Shown piece after piece: positions 8,853 through 52,815 of a stretch of 64,000 nt of DNA; position 1 is the stretch's first letter; every line of letters begins with the position of its first letter. Position numbers and translations under genes: made by a program. Origin of the DNA: an uncultured Paracoccaceae bacterium. Lineage in GTDB: Bacteria > Pseudomonadota > Alphaproteobacteria > Rhodobacterales > Rhodobacteraceae. A model generated the notes under the pieces. It had not been told where the DNA came from. It searched no databases and was given only the letters and a program-made list of their open reading frames with translations. The DNA lies in the NCBI GenBank assembly GCA_947497065.1, contig CANMEQ010000001.1, positions 262,208 through 326,207 on the forward strand. The letters are read 5' to 3'.

Positions 8853-9754
8853 GAGGGGGTCTCTCCGGAAACATAGGTGGCGGCGGCGGTCAACGCGCGT
8901 TCTAGTGCGGGTTGAGGCGCCATGCCTTGGATTTCTGATGCAATATGGGCGGCCATGAAGGTGTCGCCTGCGCCGGTGACGCGGGTGACCAGAACCTCTG
9001 GTGGCTGTGCGCTGCGCAATGTGTCGCCGCAGCATTCGGCGGCCATGTTGCCGCCATCGGTGACCAGCACGCGGTGCACGCCGCGCTTGACAAGGGCGCG
9101 CGCGCCCTCGACGGCGGTGTCGAAGGAGGTTTGGCACAACAGGCCTGCCTCTTCGAGGTTCACGTAGAGCGTGGCTGAGGGGTGGCCCACCAGGGCCAGC
9201 AAGCGTTCGGCCTTGCCCGGTGAGGCGGGGGCCACGCGCAGGTCTGCGTTTGTGAAAAGGGGCGATTTGGCGATATCAGCCAACAGATCGCGGGTCAGGT
9301 TGCCGTCAAGCGCGATAAGGCCTGCCCAAGGGGTGGTTTCATCGCCCAGTGCGCCGTCCGACAGCGGGCGCAGGATTTTGGTGCCGGCTTGTTCCAGCGA
9401 ATGGGCGTCGGCAATGGCTGCGATCAGGCCGTTTGCCCCTTCGATGGCCATATAGGTGTCTGTCGGCAGATCCTCGGAGCGGTATAAATGCTGCGTTATC
9501 ATGCCCATACGGTCGGCCTCTTTGACCAAAACATCACCCTGCGGGTCGCGCCCGACGGCGGACAAAAGGGCGGGAGTCAGGCCAAAGTTGATGCAGGTCA
9601 TGGCGATGTTCATAGCAACGCCGCCCGGGATGCGGGTGATATGGCCCGGCACGTCTGATCCGGCGCGCATGTGGCTGGAGGAACGTCCGATAATGTCCCA
9701 CAAGACGGAACCGATACAGAGAATGTCTGGGCGAGGTGTGTTTGGCTGTGTCAT
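8849..9754 (-). CDS. psuK: PfkB-family kinase, pseudouridine kinase
   Basis: 301 residues of ribokinase/PfkB fold. The N-terminal ILCIGSVLWDIIGR and the IPGGVAMNIAMTCINFG sugar-binding block lead to the anion-hole motif VTGAGDTF with catalytic Asp264. The family includes many sugar kinases; coupling to psuG (ATGA overlap) makes pseudouridine kinase (pseudouridine plus ATP to its 5'-phosphate) the best assignment. ATG 9754 was preferred over a TTG at 9793, although its Shine-Dalgarno is weak. The divergent neighbour is the acyltransferase gene at 9903; the 148-bp gap between them must hold both promoters. Confidence 0.88.
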   Translation of the reverse strand: MTQPNTPRPDILCIGSVLWDIIGRSSSHMRAGSDVPGHITRIPGGVAMNIAMTCINFGLTPALLSAVGRDPQGDVLVKEADRMGMITQHLYRSEDLPTDTYMAIEGANGLIAAIADAHSLEQAGTKILRPLSDGALGDETTPWAGLIALDGNLTRDLLADIAKSPLFTNADLRVAPASPGKAERLLALVGHPSATLYVNLEEAGLLCQTSFDTAVEGARALVKRGVHRVLVTDGGNMAAECCGDTLRSAQPPEVLVTRVTGAGDTFMAAHIASEIQGMAPQPALERALTAAATYVSGETPS

Positions 9755-15067: not shown

Positions 15068-15943
15068 ATGGCGATCACTGCTGCATTGGTAAAAGAACTC
15101 CGCGACTCTACAGGCGCGGGCATGATGGATGCGAAAAAAGCGCTGACAGAAACAGCTGGCGACATGGAAGCGGCTGTTGACTGGCTGCGGACCAAAGGTC
15201 TCGCGAAAGCTGCGAAAAAATCCGGCCGTACAGCGGCTGAAGGCCTCGTGGCCGTTGCCGTGTCAGGCGGGAAGGGGATCGCTGTTGAAGTGAACTCCGA
15301 AACTGACTTTGTTGGTAAGAATGCTGACTTCCAAAAAATGGTTGCTGGCATTGCTGATGTTGCGCTGACTGTTTCTGACGTTGATGCGTTGAAAGCGGCT
15401 GACATGGGCGGCAAATCCGTTGAGCAGACTGTGACTGACGCTGTTGCGGTGATCGGCGAGAACATGTCTGTTCGCCGTATGTCTGCGCTCGAAGGCTCCA
15501 CAGTTGTGAGCTATGTTCACAACGCTGCAGCACCTGGCATGGGTAAAATTGGCGTTTTGCTTGCTATGGACGGCGGCGACGAAGCTCTTGGCAAACAGAT
15601 TGCAATGCACATTGCCGCTGTGAACCCGGCTGCCTTGTCTGAAGCGGACATGGATGCATCTGTCGTTGAAAAAGAAAAGCAGGTCCAGATGGACATCGCT
15701 CGCGAATCTGGCAAGCCAGAAGCTGTGATCGAAAAAATGATCGTCGGCCGGATGAAGAAATTCGTCGCAGAAGCTACATTGCTGAACCAATCATTTGTTG
15801 TGAACCCTGATGTAACTGTCGGCCAAGCGGCTGCGGACGCAGGTGCGACAATCACAGGTTTTGCACGTCTTGAAGTGGGCGAAGGCATTGAAGTTGTGAA
15901 AGAAGATTTCGCAGCAGAAGTTGCTAAAGCCGCGCAAGGCTAA
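15068..15943 (+). CDS. tsf: Translation elongation factor Ts
   Basis: 291 residues. EF-Ts is the guanine-nucleotide exchange factor for EF-Tu. The UBA-like N-terminus contains [16 protein letters not shown] (signature 1), followed by [12 protein letters not shown] (signature 2, including the TDFV residues that contact EF-Tu), then the core subdomains and a C-terminal module ending in [27 protein letters not shown] precedes ATG 15068. Second gene of the rpsB operon, ended by the terminator at 15979-16006. Highly expressed codon use matches rpsB. Confidence 0.98.
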
Positions 15944-15978
15944 GCGTTCGCGCTTTAGAAAACTGCGATAAGATATTG

Positions 15979-16006
15979 AAAAGCAGCTCTTTTAGGGCTG
16001 CTTTTT
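15979..16006 (+). terminator. Terminator of the rpsB-tsf operon
   Basis: AAAAGCAGC (15979-15987) pairs with GCTGCTTTT (about 15997-16005) around a short loop, and the 3' arm runs into TTTTT. Confidence 0.88.
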
Positions 16007-16041
16007 AAGTTTGGGGCTGTCTTTAGACTTCGTTTACGAAA

Positions 16042-16266
16042 TCGGCCCCGCCCTTGGGGGGCAGGGCCGAACATTGTTCGCATCTCAGGGATAGGATCAT
16101 GCAGAACAAAGTGTGCTGGCCTGAAACGCGCTTAGCACGTACAGACCAGCGTCCGGAAATCCCGGCACGACAGAGCGAGCCTTGTAATCTCAAGGGGTCT
16201 TTGCCGCTGTTCCCAGGCCTTAGGCCACCACTCACGGAACAAGCTAAGGTTGTCACTTCCCTAAGG
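16042..16266 (-). ncRNA. Structured RNA gene, family not assigned
   Basis: No coding frame here is convincing, but the minus strand folds extensively. A closing helix joins CTTAGGGA (16265-16258) to TCCCTGAG (16091-16084), enclosing 182 nt. Inside are TGTTCC.../GGAACA around GGCC-TAA-GGCC, CCTTG/CAAGG, CCGG/CCGG, and a long arm GCTGGTCTG/CAGGCCAGC with ACGTGC-TAA-GCGCGT at its tip. A GC-rich terminator hairpin follows at 16043-16069. Several helices contain G-U pairs that become C-A mismatches on the plus strand, which fixes orientation. Size and closed form recall 6S RNA, but the multi-branched interior does not fit it well, and no tmRNA, RNase P or SRP signature is present. Confidence 0.6.
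16043..16069 (-). terminator. GC-rich terminator hairpin of the structured RNA
   Basis: Eleven base pairs between 16059-16069 and 16043-16053, with one G-U pair (16049/16063) that is only possible on the minus strand. It is followed by ATTTCG, a poor T-run, so termination may be partial. Confidence 0.6.
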
Positions 16267-16345
16267 TAAACAACAGTCAGGGTTTCCGTACTTTTGACCA
16301 AACGTACAAAAACATTTGTTTCTGAGGGGAATTCGTGCGGCCCGA

Positions 16346-17098
16346 TTAAGAAATATGCGCGTCGACGACAAACATTTGGTTGTAAAACGCTGCCTTTAAG
16401 ACGGCTTGTGCTGTCGTTTCCACGTCGAGGGTTTCACGGGCAAGGCGAAGATGTTTTTCGATGGTTGCAGGTGTCAGTTCAAGCAAGATCGCAATGTCTT
16501 GGGTGGTTTTGCCATCTCCAACCCATTGTAAAACCTCACGTTGGCGCTTGGTGAGGTTCCGTTGGGAATAGGGCAGAGTTTGAATTTTCAGGTGCATGAC
16601 GTTGTTCATCACCGTCAATTCGTTCCCATGTTCTTCCCAAATCGCGTCGACTTCGTTCTGTGTCATGCCAGACTTTGCGGTCAGGGCTATTGCGCCTTTT
16701 GTCCGCTCCGAAGAACTGGGAAAGCTTACAGTGTAACCAGCGGTAACGTCATGGCTTAGATTGAACTGAACGGACAACATTTCTTCACTGGTGATATTCG
16801 ATGCGTCTGCCATCCAGCTCCAGCTGCACGCGCCGGTGTTTTCGATGGCCCAACGGATCATCGGGGCGCGGTAGACATGGCCGTGACTGAGAAATCCTTC
16901 CATGTAGCGGTCGCCGTGGTTCGTTAGCAGAACCCAGTCTTGGGGGTCACCAAAGGAGGCGTTGGAGCGATATCGCGTAAAACCGTAGATGAGGCGATCA
17001 AAGCCAAAGTCATTCATGCGACTGCTGTGCAAATCCCATAGCGCTTCAACGGTTGGAGCGTGTGTGATCGCATTGAGATGGGTTGCAAGACAGGTCAT
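16346..17098 (-). CDS. Solo LuxR-type regulator with altered ligand pocket
   Basis: 250 residues: N-terminal autoinducer-binding domain (about 15-160) and C-terminal LuxR HTH (LTKRQREVLQWVGDGKTTQ, about 180-240). Ungapped comparison with TraR at a constant offset of eight places the six canonical pocket positions as W57 to Tyr65, Y61 to Phe69, D70 to Ala78, P71 to Pro79, W85 to Trp93 and G113 to Gly121. The aspartate that binds the acyl-homoserine-lactone amide is therefore lost. No luxI synthase lies in the window, so it is a solo regulator that may answer another ligand or none. Its promoter at 17188-17214 carries a perfect dyad. ATG 17098 is taken as start. Confidence 0.9.
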   Translation of the reverse strand: MTCLATHLNAITHAPTVEALWDLHSSRMNDFGFDRLIYGFTRYRSNASFGDPQDWVLLTNHGDRYMEGFLSHGHVYRAPMIRWAIENTGACSWSWMADASNITSEEMLSVQFNLSHDVTAGYTVSFPSSSERTKGAIALTAKSGMTQNEVDAIWEEHGNELTVMNNVMHLKIQTLPYSQRNLTKRQREVLQWVGDGKTTQDIAILLELTPATIEKHLRLARETLDVETTAQAVLKAAFYNQMFVVDAHIS

Positions 17099-17187: not shown

Positions 17188-17209
17188 TATGTATTTTACA
17201 TAATACATA
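17188..17209 (-). promoter_or_regulatory. Perfect 22-bp dyad over the luxR transcription start
   Basis: TATGTATT (17188-17195), TTACAT spacer, AATACATA (17202-17209). On the minus strand it starts at the last base of a consensus TATAAT (17214-17209), so a bound protein would cover the start site. Size fits a lux-box-like operator, and autoregulation is the simplest inference. Confidence 0.55.
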
Positions 17210-52380: not shown

Positions 52381-52815
52381 ATGCCCAAGAATTCCATGCT
52401 TATGCCGATCGTGATGTTGATCGCGATTACCATTGTTATCGGTTTCGTGATGATGACCGAGCGGACGAATGCGCCAACGGTGACTGGGGATGCCAATTAC
52501 CATCACCAGATTTGTACATTCAATCGGTATTGCGCGGGAAGCGCCTGCAGCGATGAACCGATGTCGGTGATTGCGTATTTTGCCCATGCCGATGGGGAGC
52601 CGCGTTTGGAGGTTCCGGGGATGTCCACACAGGCGACAATGGAGCGGCGGAACGGCCGGACCATTTTCTCCTCCACGGGGGGGACATTGTCCGGCAGTTT
52701 GACGATTTATGACACACGCAACATGGATTTTGTGGCGACCGATGATGAGTTCAGCCCACCTCAAGAACATTACGCGTCGGGGCGGTGTGACCGGCCGATT
52801 GTGCCAAGAGGTTAA
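52381..52815 (+). CDS. Hypothetical exported or membrane-anchored protein
   Basis: 144 residues. I do not recognise it. One N-terminal membrane helix (MLMPIVMLIAITIVIGFVMM) is followed by a periplasmic domain of about 110 residues rich in beta strand, with four cysteines: three close together in HHQICTFNRYCAGSACSDE and one in SGRCDRP, suggesting two disulfides. No catalytic motif. ATG 52366 would add five residues; 52381 follows GGCGGTGCC. Downstream of the GlxA regulator on the same strand (74 bp gap) but probably independent. Confidence 0.65.
   Translation: MPKNSMLMPIVMLIAITIVIGFVMMTERTNAPTVTGDANYHHQICTFNRYCAGSACSDEPMSVIAYFAHADGEPRLEVPGMSTQATMERRNGRTIFSSTGGTLSGSLTIYDTRNMDFVATDDEFSPPQEHYASGRCDRPIVPRG

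Follow-up and report, generated by a model that had tools for sequence, protein, structure and literature searches.

Regulator genes with an sRNA gene as neighbour are known from the pairs OxyR-OxyS, GcvA-GcvB and SgrR-SgrS, in which the operator lies in the sRNA promoter. At the locus described here, a regulator gene is likewise located beside an sRNA gene, and an operator-like site is present in the predicted sRNA promoter. Unlike in the OxyR-OxyS type, a LuxR solo carrying an autoinducer-type domain serves as the putative regulator, the two genes are co-directional and the RNA fold has no Rfam match. LuxR genes beside tsf were described by Subramoni et al. (2015) as group 1 of the solos of unknown function (PMC4338825). 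In the accessible sections of that account, the order with tsf was reported for 25 genera, Octadecabacter included, the substitutions W57Y, Y61F and D70I/G/A were given for the group, aromatic amino acid biosynthesis was suggested from an aroQ neighbour, and no RNA was named (PMC4338825). Group 1 solos occur commonly among roseobacters and are listed there as of unknown function (PMC4338825). An RNA at this locus would give a long-unexplained orphan LuxR sensor a concrete output. StsR and UpsM of Rhodobacter sphaeroides are sRNAs of the same bacterial family; according to the available text, StsR is under RpoHI/II control and UpsM is part of the dcw leader (PMC8307010, PMC8625941, PMC5089854).

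The RNA gene was found in a 64,000-nucleotide stretch of DNA from an uncultured Paracoccaceae bacterium, the whole of which is called the window. Here rpsB and tsf, both on the plus strand, are followed by a gap of 402 nt, then by a minus-strand gene of the LuxR type and by nadA. The RNA lies inside the gap, 3' of the LuxR-solo gene and convergent with tsf. The names rpsB, tsf and nadA are those we presume from the window sequences, whereas the LuxR assignment comes from Pfam domains. The interval does contain a genuine RNA gene, conserved, structured and encoded by the minus strand, with limits and a fold that differ from those of the preliminary description. The features of the locus were as follows:

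15068 to 15943, plus strand: tsf, the convergent neighbour (open reading frame)
15979 to 16007, no single strand: hairpin with T tails on both strands, tsf terminator and possible sRNA end (sequence, fold, genus alignment)
16042 to 16240, minus strand: sRNA body, hairpins H1 to H6 (fold, covariation of H1 to H4, R1 match at 16113-16241, start predicted from the -10-like element)
16042 to 16070, minus strand: H6, G+C-rich hairpin with just three U after it (fold; similar hairpin in the genus alignment)
16071 to 16112, minus strand: H5, hairpin with UAUCCCUGAG exposed, the candidate seed (fold; H5 covariation not counted)
16115 to 16150, minus strand: H4, long hairpin (genus alignment)
16153 to 16165, minus strand: H3, CCGG hairpin (covariation, genus alignment and 101 rows)
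16167 to 16207, minus strand: H2, outer stem and inner CCUUG/CAAGG hairpin (genus alignment)
16209 to 16240, minus strand: H1, GUUCC, GUGAGUGGU internal loop, GGCC-UAA-GGCC and GGAAC (fold, genus alignment)
16247 to 16252, minus strand: -10-like element CAACCT (position conserved in 115 loci among the matches listed)
16275 to 16291, minus strand: inverted repeat GTACGGAAACCCTGACT, starting at -51, proposed LuxR operator (conserved in listed loci)
16346 to 17098, minus strand: LuxR solo, proposed activator (Pfam autoinducer-binding domain and GerE HTH; linkage)

The structure was investigated in a MAFFT alignment of 18 same-genus sequences made without structural information (the genus alignment). 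In helices H1 to H4, 95.6% of the cells pair and two-sided changes occur at 18 of 40 pairs, including all 6 pairs of the H2 outer stem and 11 of the 16 pairs of H4. All five covariation measures were above all 500 shuffles and all slid controls. A covariance model of H1 to H4 (R1) matched 99 of 100 sources, the exception being L060, and two weak extra places. The 101-row alignment, which was fitted to the structure and retains the two weak rows (window 9173-9327 and L091 1623-1735), showed two-sided changes at 35 of 40 pairs and 706 two-sided cells against 201 ± 16 in shuffles. The preliminary description had called for such a covariation check, and H1 to H4 do covary strongly in relatives. 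It had also pointed to G-U pairs of the minus strand that become C-A mismatches on the plus strand, and this asymmetry was upheld over the relatives. G-U cells outnumbered A-C cells by 79 to 1 in the 18 same-genus sequences aligned without structure and by 416 to 37 in the 101 rows fitted to the model, and the RNA is therefore assigned to the minus strand. The folding z-scores of the region were -4.20 for the minus and -2.32 for the plus strand.

The minus-strand fold from the predicted start (16035-16240) had an energy of -93 kcal/mol and a z-score of -4.83, matched by 0 of 200 shuffles. When the window sequence was folded from 16240, the MFE and centroid structures were the same and contained the alignment-based helices H1 to H4. 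The pairings GCTGGTCTG/CAGGCCAGC and ACGTGC/GCGCGT and the hairpin at 16042-16070, all of them noted earlier, are present in this fold. The 182-nt closed fold of the preliminary description has to be replaced by hairpins in a row. Its closing stem, CTTAGGGA/TCCCTGAG, forms 8 of 8 pairs in this genome only and is not conserved: of 20 aligned genomes, two others form 7 of 8 pairs and the remaining 17 form 6 or fewer. The 5' arm of this stem lies upstream of the predicted start, in the putative promoter between the repeat and the start, and the nearest folded stretch that contains it (16078-16266) had a z-score of -2.05, with 5 of 200 shuffles as good. The interval first outlined, 16042-16266, does hold the RNA, but it takes in predicted promoter sequence (16241-16266) and omits both the repeat at 16275-16291 and the LuxR gene, the two elements central to understanding what the RNA does. 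In relatives such as L061 and L038 the H4 loop is A+U-rich, of the GUAUUGAUC type, between G+C-rich arms, and 46 of 117 loci among the matches listed have GTATW in their H4 stretch; the A+U-rich loop of relatives is a possible protein-binding site.

A protein-coding signal had been named at the outset as the observation that would speak against an RNA gene. TTG-initiated frames of 92 codons (minus strand) and 71 codons (plus strand) might suggest a short protein-coding gene, but one- and two-base indels between relatives break the reading frames while the base pairs persist, and the minus-strand TTG is located upstream of the predicted start, which leaves this explanation with next to no probability. 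The proposed Rfam check was also performed. At the gathering level, Rfam 15 gave no match in the whole window or in the loci of 7 relatives, with tmRNA, SRP RNA and RNase P RNA all unmatched there, and ARAGORN reported no tmRNA in the window. Five weak Rfam matches near the RNA (E≤10) were far below the cut-offs and were taken as chance. The RNA thus forms a structured family that is well supported and has no Rfam 15 match in the window and the 7 relatives' loci, and a covariance model for it would help to annotate many genomes.

The first description had seen a resemblance to 6S RNA in size and closing stem. 6S RNA forms a single long stem that opens into a large bubble in the middle; here the likeness is in size only, and covariation backs a series of hairpins. 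RF00013 (6S) had no match at the RNA at the gathering level or at E≤10, and the best 6S match of the genome was on another contig, C6, where a candidate scored 28 bits against a cut-off of 46.4 bits. That the RNA is 6S or another housekeeping RNA, as its size alone might suggest, is hardly conceivable given the lack of Rfam and ARAGORN matches, the 6S candidate on C6 and the absence of the RNA from other families among the 387 class genomes. 6S candidates with 27.6-37.8 bits were present in 4 of 4 genomes of the genus (L025 on G000 contig C6 at 52470-52628, L023, L024 and L026), and standard annotation would miss them because these scores are below the Rfam cut-off.

The RNA is spread widely through the family Rhodobacteraceae. 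R1 matched 141 of 246 family genomes, and R2, a covariance model of H1 to H4 built from the 101 rows, matched 156 of 246. Over the class, R2 matched 5 of 387 genomes, all of the same family and none of other families; a sixth class-level R1 match, in G287 (E 0.007), had no R2 match and was set aside. At the DNA level, the region was conserved in 18 of the 19 genomes of the genus, counting the source genome itself, in 4 of 6 others of the family and in 0 of 16 others of the class. The DNA matches of G019 (25 nt) and G023 (32 nt) were short pieces away from the RNA; the covariance model gave no match in G019 and one on another contig in G023, and these two were the exceptions to the 20 of 22 loci with tsf and luxR on either side of the gap. 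Of 110 relatives among the matches listed, 94 had a convergent tsf ≤600 nt from the RNA start. When named genomes were scanned with an exact pattern, at least 119 stretches were returned, nearly all from Rhodobacteraceae genera or unclassified alphaproteobacteria, apart from L059, titled Sphingomonadales, and L119, titled Nocardioides marinus. The latter has the tsf-RNA-luxR order and a tsf that is 84% identical over the alignment, and looks like a wrong title or a foreign contig. L060 and L126, in which neither tsf nor luxR was seen, were left out of the promoter, linkage, loop, terminator and LuxR-residue counts. A search for plasmid copies gave no match to the window RNA or to a Ruegeria member.

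Ten luxR genes had no RNA match among the matches listed, and nine of them were examined. A diverged RNA was present behind luxR at E≤0.0031 in G121, G195, G217 and G230, G084 had a 12-bit match together with the repeat and a GTTCC hairpin, G175 and G129 had kept parts without a model match, and no RNA version was seen behind luxR in G254 and G256. As diverged versions were found behind several unmatched luxR genes, 156 of 246 is a lower bound.

Promoter-like motifs were found at a fixed spacing from GTTCC in the 115 of 117 loci that had 80 nt upstream (among the matches listed, as are the following counts of this set). Positions -12 to -7 read CAnnnT, with C in 86%, A in 95% and T in 94%, and YAnnnT was present in 95 of 115 loci. 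Further upstream, 107 of the 115 loci matched 8 or 9 of the 9 fixed letters of the 17-nt motif GTAnGGnnnnnCnnACT, the match lying at -54 to -50, compared with 0.65% of shuffles. This repeat is a dyad, GTAnGG-N4-CCnKAC, centred near -43.5, and class II activators such as LuxR sit near -43.5. A degenerate pattern of the repeat had its single match in the genome at the sRNA promoter; in a search for extra sites in 11 genus genomes, the pattern matched 24 times, including 11 matches at the sRNA, and the reversed control matched 13 times, so that extra sites were not in excess. The repeat was also considered as an RNA hairpin, and this was rejected: opposite inner letters do not pair, one such pair reading A-G in 42 of the 107 loci among the matches listed, pair 3/12 is Watson-Crick in 46 against 35 expected, and the outer letters are fixed, so that the repeat acts like a protein site. 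A scan for consensus sigma-70 promoters found none at the locus, which is expected if the promoter needs an activator, yet is no support for it either. Motif position and spacing argue well for a promoter of its own, a start at 16240 (GUUCC) and activation by the LuxR solo; the predicted transcript would contain six hairpins and end at ∼16042 or at a terminator common with tsf near 15978. The copies L058, L142, L071, L105 and L203, which have no repeat, have in common a CTTCCC(C)TA-like run at the -35 place, perhaps a switch to an activator-free promoter type.

luxR (E≤1e-40) was present in 174 of 246 family genomes. Of 150 matches listed, 131 placed the RNA 68-1425 nt (median 117 nt) 3' of a co-directional luxR, and the other 19 had no adjoining luxR among those listed. 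This constant position behind luxR, the lack of a visible terminator between the two and the 3'-UTR-derived sRNAs reported for Rhodobacter in the accessible text of two studies (PMC9779115, PMC8625941) would all agree with a processed 3' UTR of the luxR mRNA that has no transcription unit of its own. We consider this improbable, as the -10-like element and the repeat keep a fixed spacing to GTTCC and the RNA persists where luxR is distant, elsewhere or absent (L058, L084, L096, L142, G138, G215 and G224).

The association between luxR and the repeat was analysed in 91 named loci with ≥1500 nt upstream, among the matches listed. In 87 of the 91 loci a co-directional luxR lay no more than 1.5 kb away, and 84 of these 87 had the repeat. 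In L096 luxR was 4.5 kb off and the repeat was present, and the three luxR-less loci (L058, L084 and L142) all had no repeat. L071 and L105 had a seemingly intact luxR beside the RNA, yet no repeat, and L118 had a partial luxR match and a decayed repeat. Fisher's test gave p 1.6e-4 with few luxR-less loci, a value that overstates independence, since L142 comes from the same genome as G130 and seems to be a near relative of L058. In G138 and G215 luxR was on another contig and the repeat was retained with 8 and 9 of 9 letters, and G224 had neither a luxR at E≤1e-40 nor the repeat. L071 and L105 are what might be expected if the RNA had its own promoter and a different protein occupied the repeat; this is an unlikely explanation, because repeat and luxR are retained or lost jointly in most loci and the layout fits what we take to be LuxR-type class II activation. 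In many Rhodobacteraceae, an orphan sensor of the LuxR type probably activates the RNA encoded beside it. Autoregulation of luxR through the same repeat was not supported: the 91 luxR upstream regions among the matches listed had no full match and one match at 8 of 9 letters, no more than shuffles. An A+T-rich inverted repeat, ATGTATTATGTAAAATACAT, is located upstream of luxR at 17189-17208 and is a possible site for control of luxR.

With the residue register taken from an alignment to RhlR, the window LuxR has Y, F and A at positions 57, 61 and 70. D70 was kept in 0 of 103 relatives among the matches listed, all 103 having A, G, S, T or I, and the HTH recognition region was almost invariant in this set. 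The tsf order, W57Y, Y61F and the loss of D70 are common to this protein and group 1; P71V, which the accessible part of the group 1 account has among the changed residues without requiring it (PMC4338825), was absent, P71 being retained in the window LuxR and in 102 of 103 relatives among the matches listed. The signal may be one other than a classical AHL. We tentatively raise the possibility, against which we would still lean, that for group 1 solos, having lost the AHL-holding acidic residue, the sRNA is the main or only direct target across Rhodobacteraceae. If true, such a one-sensor, one-RNA relay would read out a small-molecule signal via an RNA and not via a set of promoters. The conserved operator with the RNA behind it offers a ready reporter for finding the ligand and the role of the solo.

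The reading that we favour, with a fair margin of doubt, is a trans-acting sRNA activated by the adjacent LuxR solo of the non-AHL type. A LuxR-type dimer, encoded just upstream, would bind the inverted repeat near -43.5. Acting from there as an activator of class II, it would recruit RNA polymerase to a promoter whose -10 element (CAnnnT) is weak, with transcription from 16240. The product would be a stand-alone sRNA of ∼200-260 nt with its own promoter that folds into the hairpin row, with the H1 internal loop GUGAGUGGU and the C-rich H5 loop exposed, and it might pair with target mRNA, most likely via the H5 loop. The H5 loop of the window is UAUCCCUGAG, and much of the family has AUCCCC at the matching place. 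AUCCCC was found behind H4 in 77 of 114 relatives among the matches listed, compared with 6% in shuffles, and was unpaired in 57 of 78 local folds among the matches listed. Complements of the genus H5 loop in 5 genomes gave 19 matches, of which 5 were at the sRNA gene itself. Among the other 14, two pairs alone had shared surroundings, one in what is presumably an rRNA region and the second within a coding frame, and nothing was convincing as a target.

This outcome of the target search, together with the strong fold and an H1 internal loop GUGAGUGGU that is kept in most members, is in line with an RNA that holds a protein or a small molecule and does not pair with mRNA. The conservation of the H1 loop is overstated among the at least 119 stretches, because the search pattern selects for it; diverged versions alter the H1 loop, several of them still with CATCCCC, and the C-rich, exposed H5 loop resembles what we take to be usual in pairing sRNAs. 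We regard the holding function as rather unlikely and retain the trans-acting sRNA as the preferred reading.

At the 3' end, the terminator hairpin of the preliminary description (16042-16070, H6) exists as a fold, but its role as a terminator is doubtful because only three U follow on the 3' side. A simple terminator scan reported neither this hairpin nor the one at 15979-16007. A T-tailed hairpin was present in 34 of 111 relatives among the matches listed, compared with 0.4% in shuffles; the median end of the first such hairpin was +213.

In searches of the open-licence literature, no paper could be tied to an RNA at the tsf-luxR locus. The RNA-seq study of Ruegeria pomeroyi, in its accessible part, lists riboswitch82, of 188 nt and set against the LuxR autoinducer-binding regulator SPO1974, and trans54, of 207 nt and with no predicted target; its text also refers to a cobalamin riboswitch homologue (PMC4809877), possibly the same RNA as riboswitch82. 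Ruegeria has the RNA of the tsf-luxR gap (L100, L104), and the transcript of this RNA may have been seen before in these data.

A second, unlinked copy of the RNA was observed in G242 (L197, contig C31, 38109-38238), away from tsf. Its repeat is complete and spaced as at the tsf-linked copies, and its H1 stem is compensated to GUUUC/GAAAC. A LuxR relative with 41% identity is located nearby in convergent orientation, and for this reason another LuxR protein might act at the second copy.
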